Assembly (NCBI RefSeq): GCF_025398275.1
Contig: NZ_JAODOR010000011.1
Location: 248,001 to 312,000 of the forward strand
Length of the DNA stretch: 64,000 nt
Direction: 5' to 3'
Source of the DNA: Microbacterium memoriense
GTDB taxonomy: Bacteria > Actinomycetota > Actinomycetes > Actinomycetales > Microbacteriaceae
How positions within the stretch are numbered: position 1 is the stretch's first letter; every line of letters starts with the position of its first letter. The position numbers and the translations under genes were made by a program. The notes below the pieces were generated by a model. The model was not told the DNA's origin, did no database searches, and saw only the letters and a program-made list of their open reading frames with translations. Shown piece by piece: positions 15,756-20,326 of this stretch.

Positions 15756-16634
15756 ATGGACGATGGCGACGGTGCGGTGTCGACGGCCGGAGTAGTCCTC
15801 CTGTTTCGACCAGACCTCGAGACTGCAGAGAACGTCATGCTGCTTGCCGAACAGGTGGGGCAGGTCTACTTGGTCAACAACTCGCCCGGTGACGCATCGA
15901 TCGCGAAGATGCTCGCTCTCCTTCCCGGCGGCCTGGCGATGACAGTGCTCGATCAATCCGAAAATCGGGGCGTGGCCGCGGGTTTCAACGCCGGCATGCG
16001 AGCAGCGTTCGCTGACGGGTACGACCAGGTAGTCATCTTCGATCAGGACACCGCTGTGACTCCGGGGCTCGTGCGCACCTTGACGGATGCGCGGTCAGCG
16101 GCCGGGGTGCGAGCGGGGATCGTCGGGCCAGCGCTGCGATCTGCGGCTTCGGGCGTCGTCTATCGGCGCGAATCCGGAACGGGTGCTCGACGTGTCGACA
16201 CGCTCATCAGTTCCGGTTCGCTGTTTCACCGAGACATCGTCGCCCAGATCGGACTTCACGACGAGCCGCTCTTTATCGACTACGTCGACCACGATATCTG
16301 TCTGCGCGCGAAGCGGGCGGGACTCCACAATTTGAAGGTGTACGACGCGCTGGTCGATCATCGATTCGGGGATTCTCATCCCACGCGCCTCCTGGGGCGC
16401 CGGGTATTCCTCGCGAACTATTCACCTACCCGATTGTTCTACTCCTCGCGCAACCGAGTGATCGTCATCCGCCGCTACGGGTTCGGTGCCTGGTTCTGGG
16501 CGGATGCCTGGTTCACGGCGAAAGCATGGATCAAGCTCCTGCTGCTCGAGCAGCACCGAGGGACGAAGATTCGCGCGGGCCTGCGCGGCATTCGAGCGGG
16601 CCTTGTATTCCCCGCACGAGAGAGACGCTGGTAA
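15756..16634 (+). CDS. GT2 rhamnosyl/galactofuranosyl-type transferase
   Basis: A 292-residue GT2 protein of the rfbF/WbbL type. It shows [26 protein letters not shown], the metal site [13 protein letters not shown] and the acceptor motif [17 protein letters not shown], all in family order. A weakly hydrophobic C-terminal part ([20 protein letters not shown]) may attach it to the membrane. Start ATG 15756 is eight nt after the preceding stop but has no good ribosome site. TTG 15750 in frame is an alternative. It is followed two nt after its stop by glf, so it may be the transferase that uses UDP-galactofuranose, although rhamnose donors are equally possible by motif alone. Confidence 0.88.
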
Positions 16635-16636
16635 TC

Positions 16637-17773
16637 ATGGATCTGCTCATTGTGGGCGCCGGGTTCTTCGGGCTCACGGTGGCCGAACGGGCCGCCGCGG
16701 CAGGCCGGAAAGTCATGGTCATCGATCGTCGCCACCATATCGGCGGCAACGCGTACAGCGAGGATGAGCCGACGACGGGGATCGAGGTGCACCGCTACGG
16801 CGCACATCTGTTCCATACTTCCAACCCGACGGTGTGGGAGTATGTCAATCGATTCACCACGTTCACGTCGTACGTGCACAAGGTGTACACAAACCATCAC
16901 GGCGTCGTCTTCCCGCTTCCGATAAATCTGGGCACGATCAATCAGTTCTTCCAAGCGGCCTTTACTCCCGATGAGGCGCGCGCCATCGTGAGGGAGTCAG
17001 CGGATGAGTTCGACGCGAAGTCGGCTCGCAACCTCGAAGAGCGCGGGATCGGTCTGATCGGGCGCCCCTTGTACGAGGCGTTCATCCGCGACTACACGGC
17101 CAAGCAGTGGCAGACCGACCCGAGAGACCTGCCCGCGGAAGTGATCAGCCGTCTCCCGGTGCGGTATACGTACGACAACCGGTATTTCAATGACACGTGG
17201 GAGGGGTTGCCCACGGACGGGTACACGGCATGGTTGGAGCGTATGGCTGATCACCCGAACATCGAAGTAAAGCTCGGCGTCGACTACTTCGACGATACGC
17301 AGCCGCTGCACAAGCGAGCGACCGTCGGACAGGTTCCCGTCGTCTATACCGGCCCGGTGGACCGATACTTCGACTACGCGGAAGGTGCGCTGTCGTGGCG
17401 GACGCTTGACTTCGAGGAGGAAGTCCTCGAAGTCGGTGATTTCCAGGGCACGAGCGTGATGAACTACGCAGATGCTGAGGTGCCGTATACGCGGATCCAC
17501 GAATTCAAACATTTCCACCCGGAGCGCGCGGACCGGTATCCGACTGATCGGACCGTGATCATGCGCGAGTACTCGCGCTTCGCGACGCGCGAGGACGAGC
17601 CGTACTACCCGGTCGGCACAGCTGAAGACCGCGCCGGACTCTTGGCGTATCGGAGACTGGTCGAGGGTGAGCACGACGTTCACTTCGGTGGACGACTTGG
17701 CACCTACCAATACCTCGACATGCACATGGCGATCGGATCGGCATTGTCGATGTGGAGCAACAGGCTTGCCTGA
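16637..17773 (+). CDS. glf: UDP-galactopyranose mutase
   Basis: Glf uses reduced FAD to interconvert UDP-galactopyranose and UDP-galactofuranose, supplying galactofuranose donors. At 378 residues it has the usual length. The FAD motif [15 protein letters not shown] opens the protein, GNAYSE follows, and [11 protein letters not shown] (about residues 52-62) is the diagnostic UGM motif. The mobile-loop arginine region [19 protein letters not shown] and the C-terminal [17 protein letters not shown] are present. ATG 16637 is chosen because homologous sequence begins there; the frame runs on upstream through the preceding gene. With the wzm/wzt pair immediately downstream, it points to an exported galactan-like polymer. 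Confidence 0.97.
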
Positions 17774-17784
17774 CTCTCGCCACA

Positions 17785-18592: not shown

Positions 18593-19332
18593 TGGACGAG
18601 CTGGCCATCCGTGTCATCGACCTCGGTGTGCGATTCCGCCGCAATCGTCGCGGACGTCGCTCGCTGAAGGACCTCTTCGCCGGCGCGAAGCGCCGCACCC
18701 GTCCCAATGAGTTCTGGGCTTTGCGTAGTGTGTCCTTCGAGGTTCGATGCGGCGAAGCCATAGGCGTCGTCGGGCGGAATGGGCAGGGGAAATCCACGTT
18801 GCTCAAGCTGGTCGCCGGTGTGCTCCTTCCCGACGAAGGCTCCGTAGACGTGCGCGGGGGAGTGGCGCCGCTGATCGAGATCACCGGCGGATTCGTCGGA
18901 GACCTCACCGTTCGTGAGAATATCCGTCTGACCGCGGGGCTGCACGGGATGTCGAAGACCGAGGTCGCACGGCGGTTTGACGGCATCGTGGATTTTGCTG
19001 AGATCGCCGATTTCGTCGACATGCCCTACAAGCACCTGTCGAACGGGATGAAGGTGCGTTTGGCCTTCTCGGTCGTCTCCCAGTTGGATGAGCCGACACT
19101 TCTCGTCGACGAGGTACTCGCCGTAGGAGACAAGGCCTTCCGCGAGAAGTGCTATCGCCGAATCGACGAGCTACTCGCCGAAGGAAGGACGCTTTTCTTC
19201 GTCAGCCACAATGAGAAGGACCTCCGCCGCTTCTGCACGCGTGGTCTTTATCTGGACGCACACGGGCTGAAGCTCGATGCCTCGATCTCCGACGTGTTGG
19301 ACGCCTACAACGCCGACTCCGCCGCCCGCTGA
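18592..19332 (+). CDS. ABC export ATPase, second Wzt without cargo domain
   Basis: A 246-residue ATPase with Walker A GRNGQGKST, signature LSNGMKVRLAFSV and Walker B TLLVDEVLAVGDK. It ends soon after the ATPase fold (VLDAYNADSAAR), so it lacks the C-terminal glycan-recognition domain present in the first Wzt. Family knowledge links this short form to export that is coupled to synthesis rather than to chain-end recognition. ATG 18592 overlaps the permease stop (TGATG), and AAGGAG lies five nt upstream, so the pair is translationally coupled. This is the last plus-strand gene of the lower-GC cluster; its convergent neighbour begins 22 nt away. Confidence 0.95.
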   Translation: MDELAIRVIDLGVRFRRNRRGRRSLKDLFAGAKRRTRPNEFWALRSVSFEVRCGEAIGVVGRNGQGKSTLLKLVAGVLLPDEGSVDVRGGVAPLIEITGGFVGDLTVRENIRLTAGLHGMSKTEVARRFDGIVDFAEIADFVDMPYKHLSNGMKVRLAFSVVSQLDEPTLLVDEVLAVGDKAFREKCYRRIDELLAEGRTLFFVSHNEKDLRRFCTRGLYLDAHGLKLDASISDVLDAYNADSAAR

Positions 19333-19354
19333 CGGCGGGCGTGCCCGAGCGGTA

Positions 19355-20326
19355 CTAGGCCACGAGCGGCGGCATCGGCCGCCACTGCGGGTCGCGCGCG
19401 ATCTTCCGGCCGTCGCGCAGCCCGCGGAACAGGTTCGATGTGCCCGTGACCTTCCGCTCGACGAACAGGAGACGGACGATCTCCTTGCCGAACGTGAGCG
19501 CGGTGCCGGCACCGAACAGCACTGGGTTGTAGACGCCGAGCGCGCGGTGGTAGCGCTTGATGTGGGCGCGGTTGCGCATGATGTAGTAGCGGTACGCATC
19601 CGACGACGCGTTCATGTGGCGGATGCCCATGTCCCACTGCTTGATCTCGCGCGTGCGGCGCAACACGAACTCGTCGACGATCACGGAGGTCGTGATCCGC
19701 GAGGCCAGCCACCCGTAGGTCTGGTCGTCCCAGTAGATGAAGAACCGGGGATCGGGCAGGCCGATCTGCTCGACGATGTCGCGGTGGATGAACATCCCCT
19801 CGAAGCAGCCCGAGTTCATCTCCTTGTAGCCGGATGCGTCGAAGCCGGACGGGGCGAAGGGGATGGGGATGCCCATCCGCTCGGCGACGCGGTACTGCCA
19901 GTAGAACTCGCTGCCGTCGTAGTCGTAGCGCCGGCCCTGGATGGACTTGAACCGCGGCGCCCACGCGCCCATGCGCGCGAGCCCATCGGGGAGGACCTCG
20001 ACATCGTCGTCCATGAGCCAGATCCACGTGGAGCCGAGCTCGTAGGCGAGGCGCATGCCCTCGCTGAATCCGCCGGATCCGCCGGTGTTCGTGTCGAGGC
20101 GGCGGTAGATGATCTCCGAGCCGATCCGGTCGCGGAACGACTCGACGACATCACCGGTGTCGTCCGTGGACGCATTGTCGACGATGACGACATGCCCGGG
20201 CTGGGGGTCCATCGCCGTGATCGATTCGAGCAGACGGGTGAGCAGATGCGCGCGATTGAACGTCACGATCGCGATCGTCGCGCTCTCGGGAGCGAAGGCG
20301 ATCGGGGCGTCAGGGGAGGAACTCAT
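19355..20326 (-). CDS. GT2 glycosyltransferase, candidate galactofuranosyltransferase
   Basis: A 323-residue GT2 protein. TIAIVTFNRAHLLTRLLESI opens the fold, IVDNASTDDTGDVV follows, and WIWLMDDDVEVLPDGL carries the metal-binding DDD. RFFIYWDDQTYGWLASR is the acceptor-side acidic motif. Large GT2 enzymes of galactan synthesis such as GlfT1 and GlfT2 share this layout, and the gene converges with wzm/wzt downstream of glf. A galactofuranosyl role is therefore plausible but not shown by sequence. It is the first (downstream) gene in a minus-strand group with two O-antigen-ligase-like genes, 12 nt from the nearer one. Base composition is GC-rich, unlike the plus-strand cluster. Confidence 0.85.
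   Translation of the reverse strand: MSSSPDAPIAFAPESATIAIVTFNRAHLLTRLLESITAMDPQPGHVVIVDNASTDDTGDVVESFRDRIGSEIIYRRLDTNTGGSGGFSEGMRLAYELGSTWIWLMDDDVEVLPDGLARMGAWAPRFKSIQGRRYDYDGSEFYWQYRVAERMGIPIPFAPSGFDASGYKEMNSGCFEGMFIHRDIVEQIGLPDPRFFIYWDDQTYGWLASRITTSVIVDEFVLRRTREIKQWDMGIRHMNASSDAYRYYIMRNRAHIKRYHRALGVYNPVLFGAGTALTFGKEIVRLLFVERKVTGTSNLFRGLRDGRKIARDPQWRPMPPLVA

Follow-up and report, generated by a model that had tools for sequence, protein, structure and literature searches.

According to the account of mycobacterial galactan in PMC10951656, GlfT1 adds the first two galactofuranose (Galf) residues to decaprenyl-PP-GlcNAc-Rha, GlfT2 polymerises the chain and Wzm-Wzt exports it. The genes analysed here lie in a 64,000-nt stretch of the Microbacterium memoriense genome (the window, on contig C4 of this 2.76 Mb genome), and an earlier note had read them as a galactofuranan export module following the same logic outside the mycolate bacteria. 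They comprise gtA (15756-16634, plus strand), a GT2 transferase of 292 aa; glf (16637-17773, plus strand), coding for a UDP-galactopyranose mutase (UGM) of 378 aa; wzm2 (17798-18592, plus strand), an ABC-2 permease with a PF01061 domain; wzt2 (18592-19332, plus strand), an ABC ATPase of 246 aa with PF00005 only and no Wzt_C domain; and gtB (19355-20326, minus strand), a second GT2 transferase of 323 aa. All five genes are indeed present and contiguous at 15756-20326, but gtB is convergent with the other four, and its length does not fit the large transferase that had been described (323 aa vs. about 640 aa for GlfT2). We consider it reasonably probable that the stretch is a mosaic in a Microbacterium wall-glycan locus and not a single galactan-export module, in which wzm2/wzt2 would be a teichoic-acid exporter; all functional assignments given here are genomic inference. 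As in the mycobacterial galactan system, Glf-made UDP-Galf, a GlfT1-like GT2 transferase (gtB) and a two-gene ABC exporter without a carbohydrate-binding domain are predicted, and GlfT2 itself appears in 39 out of 59 congeners. In contrast to that system, the genome of the window has neither GlfT2 nor PF04602 arabinosyltransferases, the exporter is only 20-24% (Wzm) and 34-35% (Wzt) identical to its mycobacterial counterparts with the ATPase in another clade, and gtA does not score as a Galf transferase. The analogy with mycobacteria is most plausible for the glf-gtB step.

The distribution of the exporter was analysed in 59 Microbacterium genomes, 52 of them of high quality, where absences from drafts are possibly false. 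Taking at least 46% identity as presence and excluding lower second matches (26-35%, wzm1-like), wzm2 was found in 43 genomes. Teichoic-type polymerases of family PF04464 were present in all 43 carriers, and wzm2 was found in none of the 10 PF04464-negative genomes (Fisher test on all 59 genomes, P-value of 1.3e−7). In one genome, G066, the only PF04464 match was weak and partial, and the counts were made with either coding: taken as absent it gives the 10 negatives, and taken as present it leaves nine, with a P-value of 9.1e−7. In the 52 high-quality genomes the association had a P-value of 2.5e−6. PF04464 is a family of several polymerases, from which the specific alditol does not follow. 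Moreover, neither glf, gtB nor GlfT2 was associated with PF04464 in the 59 genomes (P-values of 0.47-1), and in the high-quality set GlfT2 leaned in the opposite direction (0.085). According to the genome paper PMC6106888, teichoic acid seems to be the usual choice of Microbacteriaceae, which is consistent with the PF04464 result.

Furthermore, 53 genomes had both glf and gtB, of which 30 had GlfT2 and wzm2, 13 had wzm2 only, nine had GlfT2 only and one had neither. GlfT2 and wzm2 were independent (P-value of 0.26), and this test of co-occurrence spoke against galactan export by wzm2. The nine GlfT2-only genomes apparently make galactan in the absence of this permease. The claim that Wzm/Wzt is a galactan exporter was thus not borne out, since wzm2 tracks PF04464 and not GlfT2, and wzt2 groups with the Wzt of teichoic-type loci. 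An annotation based on the neighbourhood would assign wzm2/wzt2 to galactan, and the genus comparison suggests that here the neighbour is misleading; it offers a named candidate teichoic-acid exporter for a group of environmental actinobacteria.

To the whole genome of the window, wzm2 gave two matches only, itself and wzm1, the permease of a second exporter in the same locus. In a search across the phylum, 68 out of 296 genomes matched wzm2 at an E-value of 1e−30, with none at this threshold among the genomes of family f6, which we presume to be Mycobacteriaceae, as both GlfT1 and galactan Wzm exceed the curated cut-offs in them. The four closest matches outside the genus were read, two of them from the same family (L213 and L214), one from the order (L215) and one from the class (L216, annotated for the permease-ATPase pair only). 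In L213 and L214, wzt2-wzm2 is flanked by orthologs (59-77%) of two genes that are immediate neighbours (L226:112-909 and 963-1652) at a teichoic-type locus on contig C22 of the genome of the window. At this locus (L225:12345-17463), a GT2 gene is surrounded by three PF04464 genes (165, 294 and 24 bits), and no permease of the wzm2 type was found in the 32 kb read there. L213 also presented a GT2 gene and one PF04464-like gene (25 bits, weak) of the C22 locus type, and in L215 the pair was flanked by two PF04464 proteins (451 and 446 bits), one of them separated from it by a GT2 gene.

The identity of wzm2 was 61-64% to L213 and L214 and 47% to L215. In the Wzt tree, wzt2 joined L213/L214 (support 97/96) and then L215 (91/82), and one clade of wzt2 with the mycobacterial Wzt was rejected (p-AU 0.009); of the comparison with mycobacterial proteins that the earlier note had proposed, the Wzt half thus spoke against a common grouping, and the Wzm tree did not decide (p-AU 0.31). 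Curated models were missed in both directions: wzm2 scored 52.5-53.4 bits against the galactan Wzm model NF050109 (cut-off 380), and wzt2 scored 156.9 bits against the galactan Wzt model NF050108 (cut-off 400) and 157.9 and 185.7 bits, both far below, against the teichoic TagH models PRK13546 and PRK13545 (cut-offs 320 and 538). The name TagGH/TarGH for wzm2/wzt2 therefore rests on co-occurrence and neighbourhood and not on a curated model.

Judged by co-occurrence, synteny and the Wzt tree, wzm2/wzt2 most likely exports teichoic acid. It would be a TagGH/TarGH-type exporter of the teichoic acid made by the C22 polymerases, and in Microbacterium the pair would have its place with the galactofuranose genes and not at the teichoic-type locus. 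It resembles TagGH/TarGH in being a permease and ATPase pair, in the position of its orthologs from three further genomes, at or inside teichoic-type loci, and in its strict co-occurrence with PF04464 genes across the Microbacterium genomes. It differs in being encoded apart from the polymerases, in depending also on the presence of gtB, in missing the cut-offs of the TagH models and in the ATPase, as TagH often has a C-terminal extension and wzt2 has none.

The glf gene passed the TIGR00031 cut-off (332.1 vs. 303.75 bits), matched PF03275 with 272 bits and was the sole PF03275 match in its genome; as the earlier note held, it is by family a true UGM, which would make UDP-Galf. In a family survey of 60 genomes of different genera, glf matches (E-value of 1e−3) were found in 38, and a real UGM, with at least 46% identity along most of its length (split into pieces in two genomes), in 15 including the genome of the window; the other matches were short nucleotide-binding ones. 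Within Microbacterium, glf and gtB were each present in 54 out of 59 genomes, both in 53 and neither in four (P-value of 5.4e−5), with G075 having gtB without glf (86% complete) and G067 the reverse.

The best curated family for gtB was GlfT1 (68.5 bits), but this equivalog test was missed, with a cut-off of 330 bits and scores of 535 and 546 for two mycobacterial GlfT1, and gtB is only related by this model. Its motifs MDDDV and FIYWDD are close to those of GlfT2, and in the GT2 tree it fell on the GlfT1/GlfT2 side (support 96/93), where two other GT2 proteins of the window had very long branches. Together with the co-occurrence with glf, this makes gtB probably a galactofuranosyltransferase, proposed to be of the initiating type: it would use UDP-Galf and, in the manner of GlfT1, most likely attach the first Galf residue, or the first few, to a wall-glycan primer carried on a lipid. 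Relatives of gtB with 43-48% identity were also observed in nine genomes of 1.6-2.5 Mb from other classes of the phylum (L165-L173; families f19 and f40), and neither glf nor GlfT2 was detected in these loci of up to 20 kb each.

GlfT2 was detected through PF19320 in 39 of the 59 Microbacterium genomes, at 1.4 kb or less from gtB in 30 of these carriers, and within the stretch read at eight of 14 other Microbacteriaceae glf loci; therefore, the mycobacterial galactan polymerase exists in Microbacteriaceae. One Microbacterium GlfT2 matched the solved GlfT2 structure 4fix with an E-value of 3.8e−131. Examples beside glf and/or gtB are L142:12439-14349, L144:6580-8598 and L145:7154-9094 in Microbacterium, with both PF17994 and PF19320, and L164:11498-13378 by similarity only; GlfT2 in this position also extended beyond the genus, to other Microbacteriaceae and to one genome from a different family. 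In the 39 carriers, GlfT2 could extend the gtB product into galactan. Being widespread in Microbacterium and present elsewhere in the family, it makes safe organisms available for studying galactan assembly. Searches of an open-access library listed no paper on GlfT2 or galactofuranan in Microbacterium walls, most subscription journals being outside their scope.

The genome of the window had no GlfT2 match with either PF17994 or PF19320, and Corynebacterium glutamicum as a control was positive with both. The glycan that results is therefore probably either a short run of Galf or a heteroglycan that includes Galf. According to PMC7168186, GlfT1 of M. tuberculosis added up to eight Galf in vitro, with a relevance called unclear there; even in the absence of GlfT2, then, a short chain could be within reach of gtB. 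A PF04602 search of this one genome gave no arabinosyltransferase either, with the same control positive, in agreement with the earlier expectation that it lacks mycolic arabinogalactan. Of the components of a mycobacterial-type galactan system, the UGM was found in this genome, and GlfT2, a GlfT1-level score, the galactan exporter and arabinosylation were not. The rml genes and an LCP gene, which may bear on a GlcNAc-Rha linker on polyprenyl-PP and on attachment to peptidoglycan, are also present. Overall, the idea of mycobacterial galactan logic outside mycolate bacteria was upheld for glf, for gtB as a plausible Galf transferase and for GlfT2 in the congeners, but not for the exporter.

Several observations weigh against the mosaic interpretation with a teichoic-acid exporter. 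In 22 of the 40 loci read around wzm2, it directly abuts glf (14-60 nt from one alignment edge to the other), and glf and gtB accompany wzm2 in 43 out of 43 carriers, beyond what a pure teichoic-acid exporter would predict; PF04464 occurs without wzm2 in six genomes (G062, G067, G072, G089, G103 and G115). The 20 kb read in L214 had no homolog of the PF04464 genes of the window's genome, nor of the C22 GT2, and L213 had only the one weak PF04464 homolog (25 bits). The Wzm tree does not reject wzm2 together with the mycobacterial permeases, whose branch is very long, and the model scores of wzt2 do not separate teichoic (186 and 158 bits) from galactan export (157 bits). A profile-profile comparison with GlfT1/GlfT2 did not separate gtA and gtB (both 98.4% to GlfT1). 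Moreover, the species are related; in a glf+gtB+manA tree of 50 genomes, which follows wall-locus genes and not species and leaves out genomes without glf in the fetched stretch, wzm2 changed six times, PF04464 five times and GlfT2 15 times, and among independent pairs differing in wzm2 on well-supported branches, PF04464 differed in the same way in three to four, in the opposite way in none and not at all in one to two, which is consistent with the association but too few for significance. The reading of the earlier note, by which glf, the GT2 transferases and Wzm/Wzt jointly build and export a galactofuranan with an unknown anchor, would account for the glf-wzm2 adjacency, for wzm2 never being without glf and gtB, for the 30 genomes combining glf, gtB, GlfT2 and wzm2 and for the result of the Wzm tree, and the LCP ligase gene upstream could anchor such a wall glycan. 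It appears improbable to us, as wzm2 follows PF04464 and not GlfT2, which is absent from the genome of the window and occurs without wzm2 in nine others, while the grouping of wzt2 with mycobacterial Wzt was rejected and the galactan Wzm and GlfT1 cut-offs were missed by far. A further explanation takes the neighbourhood for an accident of a hypervariable wall locus, each gene serving whichever polymer the strain makes. The gene content between glf and manA is highly variable among congeners (acyltransferases, TarIJ/TarL-type genes and extra glycosyltransferases), and gtA moves. However, in 40 Microbacterium loci around wzm2, of up to 20 kb each, wzt2 adjoined wzm2 in all, glf was present in 38 and gtB in 33 (in one of them cut by the locus edge), so that the conservation of the glf/wzm2/wzt2/gtB grouping is far beyond chance; with the non-random co-occurrence of glf with gtB, wzm2 with PF04464 and with gtB, and the downstream gene ligA with PF04464, an accidental arrangement looks very improbable.

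An explanation that overlaps with the teichoic-acid exporter is a Galf-linked teichoic acid, in which gtB adds Galf to the linkage unit or to the repeat, or makes an acceptor Galf glycan with ligA as the ligase, and Wzm2/Wzt2 exports the product; we hold this to be a possibility, although an unlikely one. It would explain an exporter needing both gtB and teichoic-type genes: wzm2 was found in 43 of 44 genomes with PF04464 and gtB and in none of the 15 others (0/5 with PF04464 alone and 0/10 with gtB alone), with P-values of 3.1e−6, for the dependence on gtB within PF04464-positive genomes, and 4.6e−10, and the sole wzm2-negative among the 44 was a draft of 650 contigs, 88% complete. The gene ligA (20339-21652, minus strand) codes for a protein of the Wzy_C O-antigen ligase/polymerase family (PF04932, 29.9 bits, just below the cut-off of 31.7), may, speculatively, ligate a teichoic polymer, and occurred in 30 of 30 loci from PF04464-positive genomes and in none of eight from negative ones (P-value of 2.0e−8). 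The second Wzy_C gene, ligB (21652-23046, minus strand; 53.4 bits), was present in all 38 loci with manA, with or without teichoic-type genes. These loci were drawn from L101-L149, L236, L237, L244 and L245, excluding those without manA in the stretch (15 of the 40 wzm2 loci L101-L140, and also L150 and L151), with G085 and G102 entering through their second stretches, L244 and L245. The dependence of wzm2 on gtB and the tracking by ligA keep alive the idea of Galf and teichoic acid as one wall polymer, which, if true, would fuse two wall-polymer pathways usually taken as alternatives. In its most specific form, with gtB placing Galf on a lipid-linked primer or acceptor glycan, PF04464 proteins making the alditol-phosphate chain, Wzm2/Wzt2 exporting it and ligA joining it to the wall glycan, we regard it as rather unlikely. 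PF04464-negative genomes keep gtB (10/10), glf (9/10) and GlfT2 (8/10), which implies a function of gtB beyond teichoic acid; the five genomes with PF04464 but without gtB may be related and may use another wall polymer and exporter, and ligA was also found in three of them. In these three (G067, G072 and G115; the other two are drafts), ligA shares its stretch with PF04464 genes and with a TarIJ-like fused enzyme (69-71% identity to the L118 enzyme), which suggests that one wall-polymer cassette may have been replaced by another at a single site. The TarIJ-like enzyme and PF04464 proteins were seen beside gtB in L118 (13095-19845), the only one of these stretches scanned with Pfam, and near ligA in the gtB-less L149, L236 and L237; TarIJ and TarL are names that we presume from Pfam domain sets.

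For gtA, the best NCBIfam family was the TIGR01556 rhamnosyltransferase (127.6 bits, not reaching the cut-off of 200.55), compared with 32.1 bits for GlfT1. A search with gtA gave 24 loci, of which the best 17 (15 from Microbacterium and two from Microbacteriaceae) were named ones and the other seven were distant (27-36%) and from other groups. Among the 17, gtA adjoined rgpF, wzm1 or wzt1 in 15 and glf in two (L077 and L089). In the GT2 tree it grouped with three proteins labelled TIGR01556-like (83/67, weak), a circular placement, as those rows had been found using gtA as the query and labelled without a model scan. Because of the TIGR01556 score and the rgpF/wzm1/wzt1 neighbourhood, gtA was assigned to the rhamnan system: it is rhamnosyltransferase-like and probably works there with RgpF and Wzm1/Wzt1. 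Kinship with rhamnosyltransferases, which the earlier note had set against its own reading, was thus seen for gtA, by its best although sub-cut-off hidden Markov model score and by its neighbourhood, and not for gtB. As in rhamnan systems, RgpF (5113-7035, plus strand; PF05045, 408.5 bits), rmlA, the permease wzm1 (7072-7989, plus strand; PF01061) and the ATPase wzt1 (7997-9211, plus strand; PF00005 and, at its C-terminus, the carbohydrate-binding Wzt_C domain PF14524) lie upstream in the same locus, and in relatives gtA is usually found there; unlike that arrangement, gtA of the window adjoins glf, as in L077 and L089. The latter, from Microbacterium schleiferi, presented glf, gtA and gtB adjacent (L089:8826-11873), and no wzm2 was found within its 20.8 kb locus. 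Among genomes that have glf and gtB and lack wzm2, all five of the stretches read contained relatives of wzm1/wzt1 (38-71% identity to wzm1). In congeners with glf, gtB and GlfT2 but no wzm2, galactan would have to leave otherwise, and Wzm1/Wzt1 is the obvious candidate route.

The five genes were placed inside a large wall-glycan locus because RgpF, rml, wzm1/wzt1, Wzy_C and LCP genes surround them. Immediately upstream of gtA there is a membrane GT2 of the polyprenyl-phosphate hexose type (14575-15747, plus strand), AglJ-like (TIGR04182, 128.1 bits, cut-off of 325 not reached), and downstream of the two Wzy_C genes the phosphomannose isomerase gene manA (23111-24259, plus strand; PF20511) forms, by synteny, the right border. 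Beyond the upstream edge of the window (L032), an rmlB-like gene, a single frame fusing rmlC and rmlD domains of the dTDP-rhamnose enzymes (L032:15263-16690) and, about 8 kb from the window, an LCP ligase gene (PF03816, L032:10192-11640) were found. A promoter and terminator scan gave no signal above shuffles. Membrane acyltransferases with SGNH domains often lay between glf and wzm2 or gtB (loci L101-L151; PF01757 and PF19040 in the two proteins scanned), a possible O-acyl decoration of a wall glycan. A DUF6541 protein adjoined glf in several wzm2-negative congeners, and the wall locus of the window also encodes a large membrane protein with DUF7657 and DUF7654 (10136-12364).

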